IMG/VR virus record: IMGVR_UViG_3300027746_000697
Coordinates: 52,632 to 116,631 of that record
DNA length: 64,000 nucleotides
Source of the DNA: a virus
Strand: one strand, 5' to 3'
Each line of letters starts with the position of its first letter. Position 1 is the stretch's first letter. The notes beneath the pieces were generated by a model. The model was not told the DNA's origin. It made no database searches and saw only the letters and a list, made by a program, of their open reading frames with translations. This document shows, piece by piece, positions 1 through 53,996 of the stretch. The translations under genes and the position numbers were made by a program.

Positions 1-1
1 A

Positions 2-382
2 GAAGCTGAAATCCAGCGCATGGTACGTGAAGCGGAAGACAACGCAGAGTCTGATAAGAAAATACGTGAGTTAATTGATGCACGTAACAGTGCAGAATCA
101 ACTACACACGGCATCAAGAAAGACTTTGAAGAATTCAAAGATCAGTTGACTGAGGAAGAAAAGACTGCATACGAAACTGCATTCAAAACTGTCGAAACAG
201 CAGTTTTAGGTGAAGACGTAGAAGCCATTACTACATCAGTTACTGCATTTTTTGAAGCGGCCGGTCCTGTAATTGCTAAAAAGCAAGCCGCAGAACAGGC
301 CAAAACTGCACCACAAACTCAAGGTGGTGAACAAACTGTGGATGCGGCCTTTACAGAGGTTGACCCCGCAGACAAAAAGTAA
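2..382 (+). CDS. dnaK: DnaK (Hsp70) chaperone, C-terminal fragment
   Basis: The open frame enters from the left edge (EAEIQRMVREAEDNAES is read from base 2), so only about the last 126 residues are present. They match the helical lid and tail of DnaK: the segment after the substrate-binding domain, the helical bundle, a Gln/Ala-rich linker and the acidic C-terminus VDAAFTEVDPADKK, close to the VDAEFEEV tail of bacterial DnaK that binds DnaJ and client proteins. A full DnaK is about 640 residues, so the ATPase domain must lie to the left. It is followed by hsp20 and clpS, making a proteostasis cluster. A sigma70-type promoter sits across its stop codon. Family call is confident; whether the gene is intact cannot be seen. 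Confidence 0.88.
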   Translation, partial: EAEIQRMVREAEDNAESDKKIRELIDARNSAESTTHGIKKDFEEFKDQLTEEEKTAYETAFKTVETAVLGEDVEAITTSVTAFFEAAGPVIAKKQAAEQAKTAPQTQGGEQTVDAAFTEVDPADKK

Positions 383-448: not shown

Positions 449-871
449 ATGAACCAACTTAGAACTATTGACGCCGCTCACTTGGCTAATCTTAGCAGAG
501 CACTTGTGGGATTTGATCGTTATTTTAACGGACAATTTCCCAACACTAATGGTAACTATCCACCACACAACATTGTAAAGTATGATGAAACACATTACAG
601 TATTGAAGTGGCAGTTGCCGGCTTCACCAAAGAAGAAATCAATGTAACTGTTGATCAAGATCAATTAACTATCATCGGCAAACAACACATAACCGACGAC
701 AGTAAAGAGTACTTGCATCGAGGGTTAGCGGCTAGAGACTTTGAACAGACATTTACTCTTGCTGAGTATATGGAAGTCAAAGGTGCTGAAGTTAAAGATG
801 GTATGCTCAAAATTCAAATAGAGCGTATTATTCCAGAGGCACTCAGACCTCGGCATATTGAAATTAAATAA
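449..871 (+). CDS. ibpA: Small heat-shock protein, IbpA type (Hsp20)
   Basis: A 140-residue ATP-independent holdase of the alpha-crystallin family that keeps unfolded proteins soluble for DnaK. The N-terminal part (LSRALVGFDRYF) and the end (IIPEALRPRHIEIK) follow IbpA/IbpB closely; the crystallin core carries VAVAGFTKEEINVTVD and the conserved A-x-x-x-G-x-L-type segment (GAEVKDGMLKIQIERI). Start chosen at base 449, preceded by AAGGAG. It lies between dnaK and clpS with its own promoter inside the dnaK end. Small heat-shock proteins are known from T4-like cyanophages, so the presence is not unique, but the IbpA-like rather than cyanophage-like sequence suggests acquisition from a proteobacterium (inference). 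Confidence 0.9.
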   Translation: MNQLRTIDAAHLANLSRALVGFDRYFNGQFPNTNGNYPPHNIVKYDETHYSIEVAVAGFTKEEINVTVDQDQLTIIGKQHITDDSKEYLHRGLAARDFEQTFTLAEYMEVKGAEVKDGMLKIQIERIIPEALRPRHIEIK

Positions 872-885
872 TTGTAAATAACAAT

Positions 886-903
886 GGGGGAGGAAACTCC
901 CCC
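886..903 (+). other. GAAA-tetraloop hairpin between hsp20 and clpS
   Basis: GGGGGAG, GAAA, CTCCCCC: a seven-pair stem with a GNRA-type tetraloop, directly after hsp20. It lacks a T tract; a message-stabilising or processing element is the likely role. Confidence 0.5.
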
Positions 904-919
904 AACATCGGAGAACTAA

Positions 920-1222
920 ATGGCAGGCACGGATATTCAACTAGAAGAGAAAATTAAAGTAGTAGTAAGCGAACCTAAAAGATGGAAGGTTATCCTGCTC
1001 AACGATGATTCAACTCCAATGGATTTTGTTGTTTCAGTATTAATTGAAATTTTTAAACATAACCCTGATACTGCTCACGCTGTCATGGCAGAAGTACATG
1101 AAACCGGAAGTGGAATTGCCGGAATTTATAGCTTTGAAATTGCCGAAGCCAAAGCCGTTGAAGCAACCAATCAAGCTCGTACTAGCAACCATCCTTTACA
1201 GATTAAATTGGAAGAAGAATGA
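920..1222 (+). CDS. clpS: ClpS, N-end rule adaptor of ClpAP
   Basis: A 100-residue protein with the ClpS core: KWKVILLNDDSTPMDFVV, where the N-D-D/T-P-M-x-F-V motif forms the pocket for N-degron residues, then the H-x-x-G-x-G-I-A-G-like segment (VHETGSGIAGIYSFEIAEAK) typical of the family. ClpS delivers proteins with destabilising N-terminal residues to ClpA and diverts ClpAP from SsrA-tagged substrates. No ClpA or ClpP is seen here, so it would act on host protease. Start at 920 follows GGAG. Its stop overlaps the heme oxygenase start (ATGA). Its place beside Hsp20, DnaK and a phage tmRNA suggests phage control of host protein turnover. Confidence 0.92.
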   Translation: MAGTDIQLEEKIKVVVSEPKRWKVILLNDDSTPMDFVVSVLIEIFKHNPDTAHAVMAEVHETGSGIAGIYSFEIAEAKAVEATNQARTSNHPLQIKLEEE

Positions 1223-1764
1223 GTCTGCGAGATATTACCAAAGACCTTCATCACAAGGCAGAGACAACAACATTTGCCAAGATGCTTCTTAGCGGCAAAA
1301 TTGAAAAATCACACTATAGAAACTATCTGTATAATCTATTAGCAATATACGATCCAATTGAATGGTATTGTAAGCGGCAAGGTTTTTTTACAAATTTACA
1401 CGAGTTGCCAAGATTGAAATCAATCCTTGCAGATTTTCTTGAACTGGATGAATGCGAATATTACTATTTAACTCCTGCTACTCTAGAGTATCAGGCATAC
1501 TTGCACAAGCTGGCCAACGATCCAGAGCGTAAACATCTTATTAAAGCACACTTGTATTGCAGACACATGGGCGATTTATTTGGTGGTCAGATTATTAAGA
1601 AACAAGTAGCACATATTTCAAGTGGCAAATTTTATGAATTTGAAAATGCTGACACTATGAAGACTGCTATTCGTTCAATGCTAACAGATGACCTTGGAGA
1701 CGAAGCTCGTGTGGCGTTTGAGTACGCTATCAAAATGATGCGGGATCTCTACCATGGAGAGTAA
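1219..1764 (+). CDS. ho1: Heme oxygenase
   Basis: A 181-residue biliverdin-producing heme oxygenase. The proximal heme-ligand histidine lies in TKDLHHKAETTTFAKM near residue 11, and the distal helix has the diagnostic HMGDLFGGQIIKK near residue 115. The reaction opens heme to biliverdin, CO and iron using reduced ferredoxin. It is shorter than cyanobacterial HO1 (about 240 residues), as is usual for phage forms. It overlaps clpS by four bases and the following bilin reductase by eleven, so all are co-transcribed. The pairing with a bilin reductase repeats the ho-pebS/pcyX arrangement of marine phages. Confidence 0.93.
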   Translation: MSLRDITKDLHHKAETTTFAKMLLSGKIEKSHYRNYLYNLLAIYDPIEWYCKRQGFFTNLHELPRLKSILADFLELDECEYYYLTPATLEYQAYLHKLANDPERKHLIKAHLYCRHMGDLFGGQIIKKQVAHISSGKFYEFENADTMKTAIRSMLTDDLGDEARVAFEYAIKMMRDLYHGE

Positions 1765-2437
1765 TGTCTGGGATACATTGATCAAGATTGAGCAGTATCT
1801 TGAGTCACAATTTTACGCAACTGGTAGCATTATACACGAACCGGGTATGGCTCGCTTCAATCAACCAGGCTGGGTAAACAAAGTATGGGCAAGTAGTCGT
1901 TATCGTCGTGCCCATATCGATGTGGTAGATGCACGTGAAACAAAAGGCTTGTGGATGATGCATTGTTGCATTTTCCCACATACCCACAATCCTGCTCCAA
2001 TTTTTGGCTTTGATGTCATAGCAGGTAAAAACAAAATTACTGGTTGTTTTATCGACTACAGTCCAGCTGGCGATGCAGAACATCCTATGATTGAATACTT
2101 TGGCAAAGAAGTTGGCCGCTACGAGTGGAATAAAAAACGCAAACTGCCTGAGTGGGCAGAGCGCATTTTCAGCGAGCACATGGTGGCCGCCGGCAACGTA
2201 AGCGATGAAACTGAACTTAACCAACTCACAAGTCTGGCACATATCCTAGTAAATCATTACTTAGACTCAGTATCTGAAACTAATAATACAACCAACAATA
2301 CTACAGAATCACAGAATTATTATTGTGAGAATCAAAAGCAAAACCCACATACTCCTAAAGTTATGGTTAGTTTAGGGCTTAGTGAGGAAGATGTACAGGT
2401 TTTTATTCAGGATTGCTTGTTCCCCGAAATACGATAA
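1754..2437 (+). CDS. Ferredoxin-dependent bilin reductase (PcyA/PcyX-like)
   Basis: A 227-residue protein of the FDBR family, which reduces biliverdin to phycobilins. The middle of the protein carries the family signature IFPHTHNPAPIFGFDVIAG followed by KNKITGCFIDYSPAG, matching the F-P-x-x-x-x-x-P-I-x-G-x-D segment and the following beta strand of PcyA, PebS and PcyX. It directly follows and overlaps heme oxygenase, which supplies biliverdin. An Asn/Thr-rich linker (SETNNTTNNTTESQN) near residue 175 is unusual. The sub-family (which double bonds are reduced) cannot be told by eye; an oceanic-phage PcyX-type enzyme is my best guess. No phycobiliprotein or ferredoxin gene is in the window. Confidence 0.82.
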   Translation: MESNVWDTLIKIEQYLESQFYATGSIIHEPGMARFNQPGWVNKVWASSRYRRAHIDVVDARETKGLWMMHCCIFPHTHNPAPIFGFDVIAGKNKITGCFIDYSPAGDAEHPMIEYFGKEVGRYEWNKKRKLPEWAERIFSEHMVAAGNVSDETELNQLTSLAHILVNHYLDSVSETNNTTNNTTESQNYYCENQKQNPHTPKVMVSLGLSEEDVQVFIQDCLFPEIR

Positions 2438-5978: not shown

Positions 5979-6680
5979 TTAACGTAGACGTGCCAGACCC
6001 ACTAATCTAAACAGGCCCAACCACATCCAACCTATATCAAATTCAAACCAGCGGCGACTGAGACGAGGATTTGCGGGTTCCAAATGATGATTATTGTGCA
6101 GACATTCACCGCCAATAAGAATGCCCCAAGGCATAATATTTTTACTTTTATCCTTAGTTTCGCCATTTCTATATCCTATCCAATGTCCAACACCGTTGAT
6201 AACACCTGCGGCCCAGAACGGAATCCATATCATTTGCACACCCCATATAACTAGGCCCCACGGTCCAAAGAACAGGCAGTCTATGACCAGCATTAGAAGA
6301 ATACCAAGGCGGCTATGGGGTGTGTAAATGACCCGTTCAATCCAATCCTCAGGTGTGCCTACACCATATTGTTGAATCATTTCTTTGTCTTTACTTGCTG
6401 AGTGATATAAAACTGCTCCCTTAAACAACACACGCCAAATACCGTATATGTGCGGAGTATGAGGGTCGCCTTCTTGATCACTAAATCTATGATGTTTTCT
6501 ATGGATAGCTACCCACTGCTTGGTAACCATTCCGGTTGTGAGCCACAGCCAGAATCGCATAAAATGCTCCAATACAGGGTGGAAAATAATTCCTTTGTGA
6601 GCTTGTCCTCTGTGTAAATACAGAGTAACGCATATTATAGTAATATGCGTCATAGCCAAAGTTGCTATAAGTTCTATCAT
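5979..6680 (-). CDS. Fatty acid desaturase (acyl-CoA delta-9 type)
   Basis: 233 residues with the three histidine boxes of membrane di-iron desaturases: HRGQAH near residue 24, HRKHH near 60 and HNNHH near 196, plus hydrophobic membrane spans between them. The family introduces a double bond into acyl chains, mostly the delta-9 position of stearoyl- or palmitoyl-CoA/lipid. It is shorter than bacterial DesA-type enzymes (about 300 residues). The late motif ATAAATA stands four bases before its ATG. A second, divergent desaturase is at 13149. Phage-driven membrane lipid changes at low temperature are one possible role (inference). Confidence 0.9.
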   Translation of the reverse strand: MIELIATLAMTHITIICVTLYLHRGQAHKGIIFHPVLEHFMRFWLWLTTGMVTKQWVAIHRKHHRFSDQEGDPHTPHIYGIWRVLFKGAVLYHSASKDKEMIQQYGVGTPEDWIERVIYTPHSRLGILLMLVIDCLFFGPWGLVIWGVQMIWIPFWAAGVINGVGHWIGYRNGETKDKSKNIMPWGILIGGECLHNNHHLEPANPRLSRRWFEFDIGWMWLGLFRLVGLARLR

Positions 6681-10336: not shown

Positions 10337-10402
10337 ATGGCCCAGAAGAAAAGAACACCAATGGAACGTGCGGCTCGCCGTGCTACCAAAAAGAAACGTT
10401 GA
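10337..10402 (+). CDS. 21-residue strongly basic peptide
   Basis: ATG at 10337 with GGAG eight bases upstream; MAQKKRTPMERAARRATKKK plus R. Twelve of 21 residues are basic or polar charged. It lies between cspA and the tmRNA acceptor piece. Such a peptide could bind nucleic acid, but function is unknown. Confidence 0.45.
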   Translation: MAQKKRTPMERAARRATKKKR

Positions 10403-10419
10403 TTTAAAAATTGTTGTAA

Positions 10420-10474
10420 TCCCTTCAAAACGAAGGCATGTTGGACGAGGGTTCGATTCCCTCCATCTCCACCA
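10420..10474 (+). ncRNA. ssrA: Permuted tmRNA, acceptor piece (3' tRNA half)
   Basis: Contains the T-arm GAGGGTTCGATTCCCTC and ends CATCTCCACCA with an encoded CCA. The strand 10464-10470 pairs over seven positions (one G-U) with GGGGATG at 10589-10595, the 5' end of the coding piece. The segment TTGGACGAGGGTTCGATTCC matches the 3' end of ordinary tmRNAs. In this gene it stands before the coding piece, so the order is circularly permuted, as in the two-piece tmRNAs of alphaproteobacteria, cyanobacteria and some betaproteobacteria. The 5' limit of this piece (near 10420) is estimated. Confidence 0.85.
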
Positions 10475-10486
10475 AAAAGGTTTTTA

Positions 10487-10615
10487 ATGGATCAGTGGGA
10501 CGAGTACTTTCCTCCTTTGAATTTATGGAACTATAGCCTACATTGGCAATGGTTCAATGATCCAATAGAAGAAGAAAATCTTTCTGATGGGGATGACCAG
10601 GTTTCGACAGCGTGA
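10487..10615 (+). CDS. 42-residue acidic, Trp-rich ORF in the tmRNA intervening segment
   Basis: ATG at 10487, 13 bases after the acceptor CCA, with AAAAAGG as ribosome-binding site. The product is rich in Trp, Asp and Glu (MDQWDEYFPPLNLWNYSLHW at the start). It fills the segment that must be cut out between the two tmRNA pieces, and its last nine codons run into the 5' end of the coding piece. Translation and tmRNA processing would therefore compete. Real coding is plausible but unproven. Confidence 0.4.
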   Translation: MDQWDEYFPPLNLWNYSLHWQWFNDPIEEENLSDGDDQVSTA

Positions 10616-10798
10616 GATAGTAGAGACGGCAACACGATAGGCGATGGACGTAATCCAAGCAAAAACCGTAAATGCAAACGCAAATACATTTGAGTATTTC
10701 AAAGTTCCAGCTTCAGTAGCTTTTTCAGCTAATGATGCAGACTTTGCAATGGTAGCCTAAGAAACTACAACTCCGGGGCTGGTTAGCCTTGTAAACCA
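10589..10798 (+). ncRNA. ssrA: Permuted tmRNA, coding piece (5' tRNA half plus tag reading frame)
   Basis: Starts GGGGATGACCAGGTTTCGAC, the standard tmRNA 5' end with the D-loop analogue. A tag frame ends at TAA 10758-10760. The best resume codon by context is GCA at 10674 (preceded by GTAAAT, like ATAGTC in E. coli), giving a 28-residue tag that starts ANANTFEYFK and ends ANDADFAMVA. A shorter tag starting at GCT 10728 (ANDADFAMVA) resembles the ANDENYALAA tag in length and start but lacks the upstream context. The last residues MVA differ from the usual LAA/VAA degron. A terminator follows at 10805. The 3' end is estimated. Confidence 0.88.
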
Positions 10799-10804
10799 AT
10801 AACC

Positions 10805-10832
10805 AAAAAAGGCACTTTCGAGTGCCTTTTTT
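10805..10832 (+). terminator. Rho-independent terminator of the tmRNA
   Basis: AAAAAAGGCACT, TTCG, AGTGCCTTTTTT: a stable stem with UUCG loop and T tract. Confidence 0.9.
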
Positions 10833-13148: not shown

Positions 13149-13895
13149 ATGCTTGATTACGAATGGATGTTTTATTTTTATTTAATAATATGGTTTATAT
13201 CTTGCAGTGTTTATGCAATTTACATTCACAGAGCACATGCTCATGGATCAATTACTGTAAGTTCAAACTTTAGTTATTTTGCTAGAACGTGGTTATGGTA
13301 CATAGGATTTTGGTATCCTGGTGATTCTGTTCGTTCATTTGTAGCCGGACATAGAAAGCATCATGCTACTTCTGATACCGTTGATGACCCGCATAGTCCA
13401 TTGTATTATAGCAAACAAGAACTGTTCTTTACACAAAAACCGAGTCCAACTAGTCCAGCGTATTATTTAACACCTGATGAAATTGAAAAATGGGCATCGG
13501 ATGTGCCTATATACACGGATTGGTTAGAACACCAATTTGCAAAATATTCTAACTATAGATATCCAGTTGGCGGAATTTTAGTGTTAATAATGTTTGGAGT
13601 TTGGGGACCAGTTGTTGGGTGTTTCCTGTTATTTTTTATACAGATACTCCTTCGGTCACATAATTATCTAAGTCATACAATAGGTTATCGAAATAGACCA
13701 GCAAAAGGTGCTGATCGTTCTCGAAATATATTTCCAATAGGACTGTTGTTTTTTGGAGAAGAACTTGCGGCAAACCATCATGATGATACCACTAAAGCAA
13801 AATTTTCAGAAAAATGGTGGGAATTTGATCTTACATGGGGAATTATCGTGATTTTGAAATTTTTTGGTCTAGTTAAATTAAACTCTACCAAATAA
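13149..13895 (+). CDS. Fatty acid desaturase, second and divergent copy
   Basis: 248 residues. Histidine boxes HRAHAH (about residue 30), GHRKHH (about 72) and a third box NHHDD (about 213) in which the first His of the usual H-N-x-H-H is Ala (ELAANHHDD). Membrane spans flank the boxes. It shares the overall plan with the desaturase at 5979 but only limited sequence, so they are not recent duplicates. The changed third box may alter iron binding or specificity. It sits between tRNA-Asn and tRNA-Ala under a late promoter motif. Confidence 0.87.
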   Translation: MLDYEWMFYFYLIIWFISCSVYAIYIHRAHAHGSITVSSNFSYFARTWLWYIGFWYPGDSVRSFVAGHRKHHATSDTVDDPHSPLYYSKQELFFTQKPSPTSPAYYLTPDEIEKWASDVPIYTDWLEHQFAKYSNYRYPVGGILVLIMFGVWGPVVGCFLLFFIQILLRSHNYLSHTIGYRNRPAKGADRSRNIFPIGLLFFGEELAANHHDDTTKAKFSEKWWEFDLTWGIIVILKFFGLVKLNSTK

Positions 13896-22159: not shown

Positions 22160-24058
22160 ATGAAAACTATACAACTTTTATCGCTCACCGGCTGGAACGA
22201 TTTTATCCCAGTTCTTTGGCCAAGTGCAAAAACATTTTATGAATTGTATGGTAAATATCCTGAAAATTATAACTGGATATTGCCTACAACCGAAATTCAT
22301 AGAGATATAGAAGAAAATCAACGTGAATTGTCATTGAATCCTCCAGATGTGCTAGGCGTAAGTTTGTATGTATGGAATTATGACAGAACCATGTCATTAT
22401 TAAAATGGGCAAAAGAACAATGGCCAAATTGTCTAATTATTACGGGCGGCCCACACCAATACTTTAAACATCACCCCGACTGGTTTCGAAAAAATTGGTT
22501 TATTGATGCAAGTTTGCCCAGCGAAGTATACGGAGAGATTGCCATCACTGACATATTAAACAATTTGAAGGATGATAATACCATCAGCTGGAATACCGTT
22601 GAACAAATGGTTTATCCTAGTAAGGATCGTTCAATGATGTTGAAGAGTCCAAAAGCATCTTACAAACGAGATTTTAAATGGAATTATTCTGCTTTTGAAG
22701 CACAGCAAGAACATATACAACAGTATATTGATTACTACTATGCAAATTCAGAAAATCCAGCGTTGCATAGTAAACTTGAAACAACTAGAGGTTGCCCGTA
22801 TGAATGTACGTTTTGTGATTGGGGCGGCGGCATTGGCACCAAAGTAATTCTGAAAGACTTAGATTGTGTCAAAAAAGATTTAGACGTATTGTTAAGTTAT
22901 GATATTAGCAGTGTGTATGTATGCGATGCTAATTTTGGAATCAACGGAGAACGAGATGTTGGCATAGTTCAATACATTGCAGATAAGAAAAACGCTTCTC
23001 TGAAAGATCGATTTCCAAATGTACAATATGGCGGATATGCTAAAACTAACAAACACTTTCATTTTTTAAAAAGAATCTTTACTATTGAGGCTATTAATAA
23101 AATGTCGTATGTGTACAAGATGTCCCAACAGTCATTTAACACTAACATATTAGCTAATATCAAACGTACAGATTTACGGGTGAACGAACATTTTGAATTA
23201 GCGGATTATCTTCGAACAGAATTTGGTTACGAAGCCACTATTGAAATTATTATAGGACTACCGGGTACTACATTAGATACTTGGTATAACGAATTTAACA
23301 TACCATACGAAAAACAAATACTAGTTCGAGCATATGAATGGTACTTGTTACCCGAAGCCGAAAGTTTTGAAAAAGAGTACAGAGATAAATGGGGTATTAA
23401 AACAGCTCTCAAACGTGCGGATCAGCTTATTGATGGCATTCCCAGTGAGATTGTTGTTGAAGGTGGTACATTTTCAAGAAATGATTACAAAGAATTTACA
23501 ACTGCGTATGCACTATATATTTTCTTTAATCAGAGTGGAGTCTATAAGAAATCTATCAAAGAGTTATTGAAAATAAAAAATATAAAATTTGGAGATTTCT
23601 TAAGACAATTTTATAATGAATGTTATCCGTTGTTAAAATTGGCCAGTTTAGAATCATTCACACATTTTGAAAAACATCTAGACGAAGTGGTTTCGGACGA
23701 GATAAACGAAACATTTCATAATTTAACATGGTTAAACAACCACGGCCCGCAGGTACATAGATTCATTTATTTTATTATAGAATATTTCAAGCACTATGAA
23801 ATGCTTGGTCCTATTGTTGAAAAATGGTTTATTGAAAATGGTGTAAACCCATCGTTAGTGCAAGGTGAAGCCGAGACAATATATAGCGCAAAGCGATTAA
23901 ATACCACTAGAGGGTTTATTAAAAAAATATCTTTTGATTTTTATAAAGACGAAAGAGAATTTTATGAGGATGTTATGCGGTCAAGCCAATATACTTATGG
24001 AAATTTGTTAGTAGCCGAAAAACGTGTCCTGAGTGCTAATATAACTTGGGGATTTTAA
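22160..24058 (+). CDS. B12-binding-type radical SAM protein
   Basis: 632 residues. The N-terminal part has a cobalamin-binding-like Rossmann domain (PPDVLGVSLYVWNYDRTMSL, then LIITGGPHQYF) but lacks an obvious D-x-H-x-x-G, so B12 may not be bound. The radical SAM core begins near residue 205 with TRGCPYECTFCDWGG, the C-x3-C-x2-C cluster motif, followed by VYVCDANFGI and EIIIGLPGTTLDTW. A 200-residue helical C-terminal part follows. Such proteins do methyl transfer or ring chemistry on unknown substrates. ATG 22160 follows AAAGGATAAG. It is followed by a hydroxylase-like and a methyltransferase gene. Confidence 0.88.
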   Translation: MKTIQLLSLTGWNDFIPVLWPSAKTFYELYGKYPENYNWILPTTEIHRDIEENQRELSLNPPDVLGVSLYVWNYDRTMSLLKWAKEQWPNCLIITGGPHQYFKHHPDWFRKNWFIDASLPSEVYGEIAITDILNNLKDDNTISWNTVEQMVYPSKDRSMMLKSPKASYKRDFKWNYSAFEAQQEHIQQYIDYYYANSENPALHSKLETTRGCPYECTFCDWGGGIGTKVILKDLDCVKKDLDVLLSYDISSVYVCDANFGINGERDVGIVQYIADKKNASLKDRFPNVQYGGYAKTNKHFHFLKRIFTIEAINKMSYVYKMSQQSFNTNILANIKRTDLRVNEHFELADYLRTEFGYEATIEIIIGLPGTTLDTWYNEFNIPYEKQILVRAYEWYLLPEAESFEKEYRDKWGIKTALKRADQLIDGIPSEIVVEGGTFSRNDYKEFTTAYALYIFFNQSGVYKKSIKELLKIKNIKFGDFLRQFYNECYPLLKLASLESFTHFEKHLDEVVSDEINETFHNLTWLNNHGPQVHRFIYFIIEYFKHYEMLGPIVEKWFIENGVNPSLVQGEAETIYSAKRLNTTRGFIKKISFDFYKDEREFYEDVMRSSQYTYGNLLVAEKRVLSANITWGF

Positions 24059-24061
24059 ATT

Positions 24062-24706
24062 ATGAAAAATGCTGTTGAATGTTTAAACTTCAAAGTTGAT
24101 TTGAATCAACTACGTTCTTACTACAACGAACTTAAAGCATCGTATCAAGAATACAATTGGTCTTATATGGATAATCCTGAAGATATCCGGGACGACATTT
24201 ATAATTTTAATAATCAATATAACAAAAAACGCAATGCATTTGGGTGGGCTATCACTGTGCCTGAAATACTGAGCGATAATAAAAAAGTTGTACCGTGGAC
24301 TAATATACATAAAGATTTTGTATATGGTGCTGAACATTTGGCAACTGAAAAACAAACACCTATGGTTTTTGGTATAGTTAAAAAAATACTAGAAATATTT
24401 CCGTATGCAAAACAAGTTAGTTTAACTGTGTTTGTACCGGGTGCGCATATTGTTCCACACAAAGACGAAGATTACTTAATTAGAGTACATATTCCAATTT
24501 ACACAAGCAAGGATGCCAAGTGGTTAACATGGAACGGTTACCAACCTCTTGACAAGGTTGGGCAAGCCTATCTGTGCGACACTAGAGATATTCATAGTGT
24601 ATACAACGATGGCGATTCTGATAGAGTTCACTTGTTATTTGCCATAGAATCACAGTATGAAGAACATATTAAAAGCATAACTGGTATACTAAAGACAGAT
24701 GAATGA
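24062..24706 (+). CDS. Aspartyl/asparaginyl beta-hydroxylase-like protein
   Basis: 214 residues. Key segment near residues 135-205: FVPGAHIVPHKDEDYLIRVHIPI with the H-x-D ligand pair and Arg, then CDTRDIHSVYNDGDSDRVHLLFAIE with the distal His and the Arg-Val-His that closes the cupin fold. This 'PHxD ... RVHIPI ... H ... N-G-x-x-x-R-V-H-L' pattern recurs in at least six proteins between 35 and 47 kb. The N-terminal part is family-specific. Overlaps the methyltransferase gene. Confidence 0.82.
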   Translation: MKNAVECLNFKVDLNQLRSYYNELKASYQEYNWSYMDNPEDIRDDIYNFNNQYNKKRNAFGWAITVPEILSDNKKVVPWTNIHKDFVYGAEHLATEKQTPMVFGIVKKILEIFPYAKQVSLTVFVPGAHIVPHKDEDYLIRVHIPIYTSKDAKWLTWNGYQPLDKVGQAYLCDTRDIHSVYNDGDSDRVHLLFAIESQYEEHIKSITGILKTDE

Positions 24707-25379
24707 AATTAAAGAATTTTATTCTCGACTACAATTTCCAGGTACTTATACTATTGTAGATTTAGAATTTTATGACAGCATAGTATGTAATGACTATCTA
24801 AAAATATTTGATGATGCAGTATCCGGAGCAAGTTCAGTTTTAGATATTGGGTGTGGAAGTGGTTTCATTATTAATTTTCTAGCACGAAGATATCCCAACA
24901 TATCATTTGATGCTGTTGATTTTAGTGACAGTATTGATATTGCCAAACGGTTTAGTAAAGATCATGGCATCTATAATATTAATTATTATAAAGAAGATTT
25001 TTTAACTTGGAATACTGATAAAACTTACGATTTAATTTTGTCTAACGGTGTACTGCATCATATTCCAGAATATAAACAGGCCATAAGTAAAATACATACT
25101 TTAGCAACTGATAAAGTTGTGATTGGTATTTACAACAAGTACGGAAAAGTATTAAAACGTATTGCAAAAGTACAATACGTATCAAATATATTATACATAG
25201 ATCAAGAGCAGTGTCCGTTTGAAATGGCATTTACTGATAAAGAATTTAAAAGTTTATTTGATATATTTGATATCCACACAGCGTATCCAAGTTTCCAAAA
25301 TAAATTAATCGATTTTATAAACTTGTTTAATGCCAAAAACGGCGGACTAACCATTTATTCCATGAGCTTGCCAAAGTAA
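24699..25379 (+). CDS. Class I SAM-dependent methyltransferase
   Basis: 226 residues with the SAM-binding motif I VLDIGCGSGFIINFLARRYP (about residue 45), motif II with the acidic residue in FDAVDFSDS, and DLILSNGVLHHIPEYKQAIS as motif IV/V, all standard for small-molecule methyltransferases. Start overlaps the preceding stop by eight bases. With the radical SAM and hydroxylase genes before it, it may modify the same product. Confidence 0.88.
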   Translation: MNEIKEFYSRLQFPGTYTIVDLEFYDSIVCNDYLKIFDDAVSGASSVLDIGCGSGFIINFLARRYPNISFDAVDFSDSIDIAKRFSKDHGIYNINYYKEDFLTWNTDKTYDLILSNGVLHHIPEYKQAISKIHTLATDKVVIGIYNKYGKVLKRIAKVQYVSNILYIDQEQCPFEMAFTDKEFKSLFDIFDIHTAYPSFQNKLIDFINLFNAKNGGLTIYSMSLPK

Positions 25380-26464: not shown

Positions 26465-26525
26465 AGAATGTTAACAGCAACTTTAAATTTCACTATAATC
26501 GAAAATAAAATACATTCTGTAAAGG
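26465..26525 (+). ncRNA. Y-RNA-like element G in the Ro60 leader
   Basis: AGAATGT (26465-26471) with ACATTCT (26512-26518), TAACAGCAA after the 5' strand, GTAAAGG after the 3' strand; the AAAGG is the Ro60 ribosome-binding site. The closing stem would thus sit right before the start codon. The element also holds TTAACA, 17 bases, TATAAT (26471-26499), a possible promoter; transcripts from it would carry only the 3' half. Confidence 0.55.
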
Positions 26526-26533
26526 TAATCAAA

Positions 26534-50210: not shown

Positions 50211-51213
50211 TGTTATTCCTCTTTGTCACCCGTATATCTGATGTACAATCACACCATATCTTCTTACATTTAATAGGAGCAACTAACTCGGGTTTGAATT
50301 TAGAAATAAAATCAGGATCGTTTATATTTAAACTTGTATTAAAAATCTGTTCGCCGCAGTTACCTTCTACTTCACCTGCATAATTAATTCCAAGCCTGTC
50401 AAGGCCTACATTGCAATCCCAACCATAAAATTTATTCCACCCGTTTTCCATTAGTCGAAAAGAATCATAAGGTTCTTCAGTGCCATTTGAAAATATTACT
50501 TTTGCTTCTTTTTTATCAGTCTCGTCTATCTTACCAGCATTTTTCATGCGCATTACATATTCATCAGACGGGCGTTTTTTAACAGTATCTCTCATAAAAT
50601 CAAAATGTTCATTTTGATAATTTGTCATTACTTCTCCAGTTAACGGATCTGTGAGCAACACAGTTTTAACAAGCCACGGAGTTGGATGATTGACTAATTG
50701 ATTTAACATACCCATACTAACGTCCCACGCTAGTGGATCCATTAATACTCGGCCTGCACAGAACGCATCTGTTTCTTTGTATATCAAATCTAATAATTCT
50801 ATAATATGAGCAACATCACATTGTTCTCGGTGTACACTAATCTGTATATCGTCAAAATATTTGGCATACTCTTTCCACCAACGTATAGTCCGTGAACCGT
50901 TAGTATTAAGTGTAACACGGCAATCAGTAGATTCGTGTATGCGTTTAACAAACTCTCCTAATTCGGGCCACAAAGTCGGCTCGCCGCCCGATAAGGACAA
51001 TCGTATATTTGTTTTATTAAAATGAATTTTATAAGTTGATATTAGATGTTCTATATTCTTACAAATTAATTCTAAATTTGGAGGAAATCTATGTTTCCCG
51101 TCGTGAGAACCAGGCCAACAATAATTACATTCATAATTACAAGTGGAAGTTAACGACCATGTGATATACAAATAGTCGTTATGATTAAAATTAACAATAG
51201 CAATTGGTTTCAT
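50197..51213 (-). CDS. Radical SAM protein
   Basis: 338 residues. Core YITWSLTSTCNYECNYCWPG near residue 18, LSLSGGEPTLWPEL, DIQISVHREQCDVAHI; C-terminal Cys set GWDCNVGLDRLGINYAGEVE, NCGEQ, CKKIWCDCTSDI. Closely similar in plan to 44266 and 53987, forming a sub-family of three. In the same operon as 49224 and 47923. Confidence 0.9.
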   Translation of the reverse strand: MKPIAIVNFNHNDYLYITWSLTSTCNYECNYCWPGSHDGKHRFPPNLELICKNIEHLISTYKIHFNKTNIRLSLSGGEPTLWPELGEFVKRIHESTDCRVTLNTNGSRTIRWWKEYAKYFDDIQISVHREQCDVAHIIELLDLIYKETDAFCAGRVLMDPLAWDVSMGMLNQLVNHPTPWLVKTVLLTDPLTGEVMTNYQNEHFDFMRDTVKKRPSDEYVMRMKNAGKIDETDKKEAKVIFSNGTEEPYDSFRLMENGWNKFYGWDCNVGLDRLGINYAGEVEGNCGEQIFNTSLNINDPDFISKFKPELVAPIKCKKIWCDCTSDIRVTKRNNNVQL

Positions 51214-52100
51214 ATTATCCTAGATTTTTTTAATAACGACGGCACATCATTGATTATAAGTAAGTTTATACCTATAATGGTTTTATAATTGCATAACATC
51301 CTAACCCAGTCAGATCTTTCTGGAACGTAGAAGCTATTCCAAGATTGCGGCATCACCATCTTACCTAGTAACAAATATCCAATAGCCATATCGGGTGTTA
51401 TAGATTTTCCCGGACATGTATCAGTAAACCATTGTATAAATTTGTTTAATCGGTAAAACGGAGATGGGCTCGGTGGACGGAATACAAGATACCCACCTGC
51501 TTCTAAATGCGTTTCTGCTTGTAACTGGCCATCAGTTAAACTATTAGGATCGTTATCAGATTGTAATTCTAACCAATGTTTTCCTTTATGGGTATAGTTC
51601 ATGCATAAGTCTCCAAATTCCCTGTCAGCTTTAAAAAATAAAAAATCTTCACTTGTTAACGGAATTAGGTTCCTAGGTTCAAATCTAAAATATGCATTAA
51701 CACGGGGCTCACTATTAATTTGAATCTTATATTGTTCATACGAATGTATGCTGTCGTTAATGATTTTCCACAACTCGCAATTAACAGGAACCGTTGCTCT
51801 ATGTAACAAATTTAAATCTGAGTCTGATGTAATTACAGGAATATTGATTTCGTATTTTTTGTTTATTTTATCAACTGTATTGTTTATAGTTTTTAATAGT
51901 ACAACTTCATCGTCCTTGGATACATTGAAACTGGTATCGCTTATAAATAAATTTTTATTATTAATAGCATCGGTTAACAACTTGTAAAACTTATTGGCTG
52001 CTGGCCAATCGTACATTGCATAAAACAAACTAATATTTTCAGAGCCATTAGAAAATACAATTTCAATTCCTGGCCGGTTGTTGTAAATGTCATACTCCAT
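51210..52100 (-). CDS. Unknown 296-residue protein of the radical SAM operon
   Basis: Start set at ATG 52100, which overlaps the upstream stop (TAATG); a longer start at 52160 is less likely. Opens MEYDIYNNRPGIEIVFSNGS. Mixed alpha/beta with FRFEPRNLIPLTSEDFLFFK and an Asp/Asn-rich AETHLEAGGYLVFRPPSPSP region that faintly recalls an oxygenase H-x-(E) strand, but no full motif is seen. Located between a methyltransferase-like and a radical SAM gene. Confidence 0.6.
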   Translation of the reverse strand: MEYDIYNNRPGIEIVFSNGSENISLFYAMYDWPAANKFYKLLTDAINNKNLFISDTSFNVSKDDEVVLLKTINNTVDKINKKYEINIPVITSDSDLNLLHRATVPVNCELWKIINDSIHSYEQYKIQINSEPRVNAYFRFEPRNLIPLTSEDFLFFKADREFGDLCMNYTHKGKHWLELQSDNDPNSLTDGQLQAETHLEAGGYLVFRPPSPSPFYRLNKFIQWFTDTCPGKSITPDMAIGYLLLGKMVMPQSWNSFYVPERSDWVRMLCNYKTIIGINLLIINDVPSLLKKSRII

Positions 52101-52714
52101 TATACTTTTCCTATAATCATCCATCGTTTGTATAATGGTAATTCTAGTTCGCCAGCCCATAGTACATTGATATCACATTGTTTCTTAAACTCTTCTAAAC
52201 TGCTAGCTGTACGAACATGCTCTGGAATATTATAATTATTACTTTGTAATACAAGTAACGAGTTGTGAGGAACTCCAGACTTCCATAAGTCATATTGATC
52301 TTGCGTAATATGTTCGCAACTGGTATTGATTATGATATTTGCATCGCTTCTTATAGCACACATATCCAAAGTAACTGCTTTAAACTGCCCTTGCATTTCT
52401 TCTTGCTTATTCATCATAGTAGCAATTGGTTCGCATACTGGATCTATATCAATGCTACGAATGTTGGCAACAGGAATTCTACTTTGAAATAACATACTGG
52501 CCAGCACTCCAACCCACCCGCCATGAATATCAATGGAAAACGGCTTGGGCATTGTACAATCAACTTTTGGATGTACTGCTAGTTCCAATGCATCTATCAA
52601 CCATTCTTTGCTTTTAAGTTGTCCACTCCAAAACGCATCCATGGTCCGCATAGGATCAGGGCTTTGTCGGATAGCTTGCATCCAATAGTGTAAGTGTTCT
52701 GTATCAATTTTCAT
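52100..52714 (-). CDS. SAM methyltransferase-like protein
   Basis: 204 residues. FSIDIHGGWVGVLASMLFQS in the place of motif I, RSIDIDPVCEPIATMM as the acidic motif II, KAVTLDMCAIRSDANIIINT and SCEHI as motifs III and IV. The glycine-rich loop is I-H-G-G-W-V-G instead of G-x-G-x-G. This matches a set of phage methyltransferase-like proteins of unknown substrate. Overlaps the upstream radical SAM gene. Confidence 0.72.
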   Translation of the reverse strand: MKIDTEHLHYWMQAIRQSPDPMRTMDAFWSGQLKSKEWLIDALELAVHPKVDCTMPKPFSIDIHGGWVGVLASMLFQSRIPVANIRSIDIDPVCEPIATMMNKQEEMQGQFKAVTLDMCAIRSDANIIINTSCEHITQDQYDLWKSGVPHNSLLVLQSNNYNIPEHVRTASSLEEFKKQCDINVLWAGELELPLYKRWMIIGKV

Positions 52715-53996
52715 AACAATACTCTAACCAAGATATCATCTCGGGGAAAATTTCTCTAGCATTTAAATTCCGTTGCGTTATTATATTAGTTTCCCAACAA
52801 GCAAACTGTTGTAAATCTGCTGTAGTATGTTTTCCAAAACTATTACCAATGCCTTTTAAAAAGGCAATATAGTGATTCCATTCCGGCGCATCAGTTTCAA
52901 TCCACAAACACACTTCATCTATGTATATATTAAAATCCGGAGTTAGCATCCACGGCGCAAGTTGCCCTGGGGAAACAATACTAGTTCGAATTAGATCTAC
53001 GTCAATGTTATGTTTATCCGATAATCTTTTAATCCATTTTAATAAATCTAAACAACTGGTAATACTCATAGCTGAATGAGTGATACTAAATCTAATTTCA
53101 CTTGCACCTGATTTAGAAAATTCTAAAATTTTATCTACGTTACTGGAAAATCTATCCCAGTTTAAATTAGTTCTTATGTACTCTGCTTTATTTCCGTATC
53201 CTTCTATGCTAATATGAAATTGTATAGATACTACGTCATTCAATTCTTTTATTTTTTCAAACCACTTAGTTAAATATTTTTCAGGAGTGTTACCATTTGT
53301 AAGAATAACCAACTCAGGTTTAACATTAAATTTATTTGGATTAGATTTTATTAACGGAATAAACTTGTCTATAAAATTATAAAATTCTGGTTGTATAAGA
53401 GGTTCCCCTCCTAAAATATAATATTGTAATAGCGTATTGGTACCATCTTCCTCAAGCCATTTCCAAAAAGCATCTTCAAACCCTGCAGGCGCAGTGTTTT
53501 GTTTTTTAGATGTAACATTAAATTTTTTATCTTCAGCTTCCCATTGAGAACTAAATGCACTACTACAATATATACATTTTAAATCACACGTATTATTAAA
53601 TGCAATTTCTATCATAGTTGGCATGGGTGTCAAATTGTTGGTAATTTCAGGAAACCGATCCTTGTGCATTTTATAATACGGTTCGGGCAATCTGCAACTG
53701 CGAACATTTTTAGATTCGCTATTCCAACAATTTTGGCATTCTGGATTTTTTATGTTGTTTAATTTGTCTTGCCTGGTATTGATTTCATATTCGCTGTTAG
53801 TGAATACATCTTTACCATATTTAGAAATATCATCACTGGTAATATACCTATGGGGAACATTGTGACACCCTTTAACAACTCCTTCTCCCAAGTGAACATA
53901 CAGGTAAATCCACTTCATAGCACACATAGCGGCATTATCAAACTCTTTTTCAAGTTTGGGAAATGTTTTTATGTAATCTCTAAAAGTTATTTGCAT
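52704..53996 (-). CDS. Radical SAM protein (Twitch type)
   Basis: 430 residues. N-terminal cysteines (CAMKWIYLYVHLGEGVVKGC; PECQNCWNSE) as auxiliary site; core EIAFNNTCDLKCIYCSSAFS near residue 134; YYILGGEPLIQPEF (G-G-E-P); SIQFHISIEGYGNKAEYIRT. Same architecture as 47923. Start overlaps the stop of 53987. Most likely a peptide- or protein-modifying enzyme. Confidence 0.9.
   Translation of the reverse strand: MQITFRDYIKTFPKLEKEFDNAAMCAMKWIYLYVHLGEGVVKGCHNVPHRYITSDDISKYGKDVFTNSEYEINTRQDKLNNIKNPECQNCWNSESKNVRSCRLPEPYYKMHKDRFPEITNNLTPMPTMIEIAFNNTCDLKCIYCSSAFSSQWEAEDKKFNVTSKKQNTAPAGFEDAFWKWLEEDGTNTLLQYYILGGEPLIQPEFYNFIDKFIPLIKSNPNKFNVKPELVILTNGNTPEKYLTKWFEKIKELNDVVSIQFHISIEGYGNKAEYIRTNLNWDRFSSNVDKILEFSKSGASEIRFSITHSAMSITSCLDLLKWIKRLSDKHNIDVDLIRTSIVSPGQLAPWMLTPDFNIYIDEVCLWIETDAPEWNHYIAFLKGIGNSFGKHTTADLQQFACWETNIITQRNLNAREIFPEMISWLEYCYEN

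Follow-up and report, generated by a model that had tools for sequence, protein, structure and literature searches.

Pairs of heme oxygenase (HO) and PcyX genes have been published for phages, and sets of hemO, pcyA/X and valaS genes for marine and freshwater phages; iron-supply and phytochrome roles are discussed for them by Wegner 2024 (PMC11480375). That paper states that marine viruses are the only known source of PcyX, gives PCB as the product of the enzyme of the freshwater phage CB_2, which is without the PcyX-specific Asp, and calls the reason for the presence of bilin genes in phages of non-photosynthetic bacteria "still enigmatic". In jumbo phages, ClpS has been described as probably serving the host ClpAP as an adaptor, in that case without a heme oxygenase (PMC7824862).

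Here, we analyzed a window of 64,000 bases (bases 52632-116631 of the 116,631-base virus record IMGVR_UViG_3300027746_000697), where genes for an HO and a ferredoxin-dependent bilin reductase (FDBR) follow those for DnaK, an IbpA-like Hsp20 and ClpS (Table 1). The preliminary description of this DNA had named the overlapping HO and FDBR genes, and both their names and their coordinates proved correct, with strong Pfam matches and an overlap of 11 bases. The ClpS and HO genes share a 4-base ATGA overlap, and the overlaps of HO and FDBR are arranged for translational coupling to ClpS. For the Hsp20, the closest NCBIfam model was IbpA, with a score of 124.5 bits that lies under the model's cut-off of 212.

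Table 1. Coordinates of the annotated features in the window.
Feature	Position	Strand	Match or remark
Phage DnaK, C-terminal end	1..382	+	whole gene L083:15586-17514 = record 51085-53013; PF00012, 848 bits (whole gene)
IbpA-like small heat-shock protein (Hsp20)	449..871	+	PF00011, E=1.8e-18; phrog_432, E=2e-38
Hairpin TGGGGGAG-GAAA-CTCCCCCA, IbpA/ClpS spacer	885..904	+	perfect stem
ClpS, N-degron adaptor of ClpAP	920..1222	+	PF02617, E=1.1e-28
Heme oxygenase (HO-1 type)	1219..1764	+	PF01126, E=8.8e-23
PcyX-type ferredoxin-dependent bilin reductase (FDBR)	1754..2437	+	PF05996, E=1.9e-18
Permuted betaproteobacterial-type tmRNA	10349..10832	+	RF01850, 120.2 bits, cut-off 84

Two genes of the same record had been overlooked before, namely DnaK and a 5-aminolevulinate synthase (AlaS) located about 30 kb upstream (record 23833-25032; TIGR01821, 563 bits, cut-off 339). 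The AlaS gene is thus in the same genome as HO and FDBR, yet not adjacent to them, and AlaS was detected in 6 of the 11 records tested. Together with the conserved DnaK-IbpA-ClpS setting, it changes the reading of the locus to one in which the phage would drive both the making and the breakdown of heme. The record also encodes class Ia NrdA/NrdB, a virion structural protein, IscU and an IscA-like protein, and contains 32 tRNA genes in addition to the permuted tmRNA. A low-GC island in the window (22160-54958) contains many radical-SAM proteins and Asp/Asn-hydroxylase-type 2OG oxygenases. By the tRNA cluster, the window encodes a PHROG 850 protein (26468-27943), a member of an RNA-binding family (E=2e-139) that we take to resemble Ro60/TROVE.

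Relatives are encoded by 414 IMG/VR stretches, and we analyzed the best 80 of these, a sample biased towards close relatives in which loci are counted as contigs and not as independent events. Within these best 80 of 414, the order DnaK-IbpA-ClpS-HO-FDBR was found in 55 and IbpA-ClpS-HO-FDBR in 5 more, so that (DnaK)-IbpA-ClpS-HO-PcyX recurs in 60 of the 80 close relatives. A distant set, also of 80 loci, was built around contig L084, which is 48% identical to the window, and its members are about 56-72% identical to L084 with the exception of one identical contig. ClpS preceded HO in 77 of them, with IbpA directly before ClpS in 67 of those 77. The order of stress genes, HO and PcyX is common to considerably more than a hundred other phage contigs. 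Judging from IMG sample numbers, the close relatives are probably freshwater and the L084 set probably marine. The gene overlaps recur as well: the 4-base ClpS/HO overlap was present at 45 of 58 freshwater-set and 43 of 76 L084-set loci, and an HO/FDBR overlap of 8-14 bases at 53 of 62 freshwater-set loci. The HO-FDBR pair itself is kept across hundreds of homologous loci, far above chance. At the 81 loci of the Mosig group, neither IbpA nor ClpS was found within the available stretches, and since these Mosig-type pelagiphages retain HO-PcyX without any chaperones, the pair can do without the chaperone link.

No plasmid homologues were found, and a scan of species genomes returned a single locus, L084. 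This contig is filed under a Neomarinimicrobiota MAG and carries a permuted alphaproteobacterial-type tmRNA (L084:969-1321); it shares an identical FDBR with viral contig L167 and is for this reason probably phage DNA binned in error. Contigs of 345-364 kb are the longest relatives, and, given their size, the window may cover part of a jumbo phage. Many L084-group relatives have a tryptophan-halogenase-type gene (PF04820, 310 bits) inserted between HO and FDBR (L220:3502-4998, also L205 and L224-L236), homologues of which occur in some Mosig-group loci too. Other relatives of the L084 group have a carbon-nitrogen hydrolase (PF00795) at this place (L084:8919-9974, L168:4202-4996); this family was found in 15 loci and not in the record of the window. 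Downstream of FDBR, many relatives encode CsgG (PF03783, 4.5e-51) together with a protein in which curlin-like repeats were recognized by eye (L041:7632-8570, L075:10762-11586).

Counting the hairpin in the IbpA/ClpS spacer, the 64 kb of the window have 4 perfect stems of this kind, where shuffles give 0-1. Each of the 85 distinct IbpA-ClpS spacers of relatives has a GC-rich hairpin, whose median distance is 8 bases from the preceding IbpA stop and 18 from the following ClpS start. The spacers are highly divergent, and conservation of the hairpin was judged by stem statistics against shuffles: perfect stems of at least 6 bp occurred in 92% of the IbpA-ClpS spacers versus 10% of dinucleotide shuffles, while the DnaK-IbpA spacers used for comparison had such stems in 20% versus 12% of shuffles. 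Furthermore, pairing is maintained by 25 different stem sequences among the 85 spacers. The hairpin of the window is not followed by a T-run, and its effect on the message may be to stabilise or to split it. The preliminary description had placed HO and FDBR in one operon with Hsp20 and ClpS. The strong hairpin qualifies this: it lies between Hsp20 and ClpS, and ClpS-HO-FDBR may for this reason be regulated apart from Hsp20.

The closest solved relative of the HO is Synechocystis HO-1. The protein has the proximal His and the GDxxGGQ helix of the HO-1 type (H11, D119, G122, G123 and Q124), with H11 and D119 invariant in 218 relatives. Among solved structures, the FDBR matched PcyX best (5owg, 226.8 bits; Synechocystis PcyA, 66.3 bits), and its closest isolate was the Pelagibacter phage Mosig (48.7% identity, against 22-31% for cyanophage PcyA). 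A phylogeny of the FDBR against PcyA, PebS and PcyX had been suggested as a check. In an IQ-TREE tree made without alphaproteobacterial and CB_2 PcyA, the FDBR groups with PcyX in a clade that separates from cyanophage PcyA (95/92). The catalytic residues checked, whose loss had been raised as a possible objection, are all there on alignment. H70 and D87 are the equivalents of PcyA His88 and Asp105, and D56 occupies the position of PcyA Glu76 and corresponds to the PcyX-specific Asp (Asp55, provided that numbering in the 5owg alignment begins with the first methionine shown as residue 1). Asp is found at the D56 position in each of the 198 aligned viral relatives (69 from the freshwater set, 77 from the L084 set and 52 from the Mosig set), and Synechocystis PcyA and three cyanophage PcyA have Glu. 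Because the FDBR has the PcyX Asp and sits in the PcyX clade, its predicted product should be phycoerythrobilin (PEB), where the link from D56 to PEB is taken from published PcyX and CB_2 work.

The reductase is also the slowest and most constrained gene of the module. Across the freshwater set, identity was at least 75% for FDBR and went down to 32% for HO. Where dN/dS could be estimated it was 0.03-0.07 for FDBR and up to 0.34 for HO, with dS saturated in many comparisons. The HO-FDBR pair is under strong purifying selection. Given that the reductase is conserved far above the oxygenase and that heme synthesis is promoted by the phage, what is selected would be the bilin, or else the full removal of heme by turning it into a reduced bilin, and selection appears to keep the bilin itself and not iron release alone.

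With regard to the host, the tmRNA of the window exceeded the cut-off of the betaproteobacterial model (Table 1) and scored 41.9 bits with the alphaproteobacterial one (cut-off 50). The tmRNA of the jumbo relatives G001-G003 favours the betaproteobacterial model too, and that of some marine relatives fits the alphaproteobacterial model (145 and 124 bits). This tmRNA type points indirectly to putative betaproteobacterial hosts for the group of the window, bearing in mind that a tmRNA may stem from an earlier host. The proteobacterial features ascribed to the phage before are thereby borne out, and a cyanobacterial host, which had been named as a possible refutation, is unlikely. The tag predicted for the tmRNA, ANANTFEYFKVPASVAFSANDADFAMVA, is unusually long with 28 residues. 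Photo_RC, phycobilisome and phytochrome families were found neither in the partial record nor in ten relatives, and a phycobiliprotein-like globin (BBAG) partner was not found in the phage. The earlier view that the bilin does not serve light harvesting agrees with these results.

We propose that the locus is a phage-carried heme-to-bilin module with a protective role. HO would open heme, with biliverdin IX-alpha, Fe2+ and CO as products, after which the PcyX-type reductase, translated together with HO, would convert biliverdin in a four-electron reduction via 15,16-dihydrobiliverdin to PEB. Its electron donor should be the ferredoxin of the host, because no Fer2 ferredoxin was found in the phage. 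The phage's own AlaS would supply the heme pathway. During infection of a non-photosynthetic proteobacterium, the module would keep free heme low at a time of hemoprotein turnover and high porphyrin flux, forming a reduced, redox-active bilin and giving iron back to the many iron enzymes of the phage as a by-product. We hold the chemistry, as predicted from the two protein sequences, to be very probable, whereas the protective role suggested by the gene neighbourhood is tentative; the explanation as a whole we put at a probability of roughly 0.5. The argument from the chaperone neighbourhood is weakened by Hsp20 being a common core gene of T4-like phages (PMC7674155) and by the hairpin, which may set Hsp20 apart from ClpS-HO-FDBR. 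As a further point against protection, there is no obvious protective effect in first making heme through AlaS and breaking it down afterwards. Ferrochelatase was rejected as a general partner: it is annotated in Mosig and has homologues in 28 loci, yet PF00762 was found in 0 of 15 long records.

Iron release could instead be the purpose of the pair, with the heme of host cytochromes being opened to provide Fe2+ for phage iron enzymes and the reductase merely removing biliverdin, which would ease product inhibition of HO. The NrdA/NrdB, IscU and IscA-like proteins of the record fit such a demand for iron, as do at least 5 radical-SAM and at least 8 Asp/Asn-hydroxylase-type 2OG oxygenase genes over cut-off in the window, two fatty acid desaturases (window 5979-6680 and 13149-13895) and a rubrerythrin-like protein. 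In cyanophage P-RSM6, HO (L331:2486-3184) is placed between nrdA and nrdB, a hint of a connection with iron in a different lineage, and iron supply is already considered by Wegner 2024 (PMC11480375). However, HO alone would be enough for this purpose, yet the reductase is retained and under tighter constraint than HO, and the phage AlaS pushes iron into heme. We consider iron release on its own rather unlikely.

It is improbable, at a clearly lower level, that the coupled ClpS is part of a tetrapyrrole programme, a C5-to-C4 switch ending in a pigment that is functional in non-photosynthetic cells. Here, the phage AlaS would supplant the C5 route of the host, the phage ClpS would pass the host glutamyl-tRNA reductase (GluTR) to ClpAP, sparing Glu-tRNA, and HO-PcyX would drain surplus heme. 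ClpS is indeed coupled to HO and retains its N-degron pocket (positions N34/D35/T38/P39/V43/H66), and the window has two tRNA-Glu genes. The tmRNA suggests a betaproteobacterial host, and the C5 route is used by bacteria other than alphaproteobacteria (PMC11480375). In plants, ClpS1 binds GluTR at its N-terminus, and in bacteria Clp and Lon turn GluTR over (PMC6597238). On the other hand, both the ClpS-GluTR link and the host are putative here, and relatives with an alphaproteobacterial-type tmRNA, whose hosts presumably are without the C5 route, have the same ClpS.

PEB adducts of phytochromes show no photoswitching, and bacteriophytochromes are served by biliverdin alone. The supply of a chromophore for a host phytochrome, one of the roles offered in the preliminary description, is thus disfavoured for a PcyX-type enzyme (PEB rather than PCB), and no phytochrome domain was found in the phage or ten relatives. 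The PcyA of phage CB_2 does load Cph1 (PMC11480375), but the CB_2 enzyme is without the PcyX Asp and the enzyme of the window has it, so that PEB is expected; we regard this role as quite improbable. Finally, a role in the light harvesting of a cyanobacterial host, as with cyanophage pebS/pcyA, was rejected as extremely improbable, for although the enzyme belongs to the same family and PcyX expressed in Synechococcus delivers PEB to phycobilisomes (PMC13197396), the tmRNA is proteobacterial, no psbA/psbD or phycobiliprotein family was found in the partial record, and the FDBR is far from cyanophage PcyA.

The conserved coupling to ClpS and the small heat-shock protein, together with a reductase that is more constrained than the oxygenase, makes the need for bilin, iron or heme removal testable. 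We found no report of ClpS-HO-PcyX coupling or of the IbpA-ClpS hairpin in the literature searched; the HO-PcyX pair is of a known kind, and its (DnaK)-IbpA-ClpS setting seems undescribed. With the HO-PcyX pair of the pelagiphage Mosig EXVC030M (PcyX EBK42635, PDB 5owg), the locus shares adjacent overlapping genes, PcyX-type residues and the FDBR identity given above, but its HO is only about 30% identical, it forms a separate clade, and it has IbpA and ClpS genes, which were not found at any of the 81 Mosig-group loci. As in the hemO-pcyA/X-valaS set of CB_2, an aquatic phage for which a non-cyanobacterial host is likewise inferred, the three genes occur in one phage record, here as a "broken" cassette; in contrast to that set, the enzyme of the window has the PcyX Asp where the CB_2 enzyme makes PCB, and the chaperone-ClpS setting is not seen in the available part of the CB_2 report (PMC11480375). 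Cyanophages carrying ho with pebS or pcyA likewise have a phage-borne heme oxygenase and FDBR, but differ in host, clade and neighbourhood, and photosynthesis genes were not found in the record of the window. The close relatives of the window look freshwater and betaproteobacterial, which would extend the range of PcyX past marine viruses.
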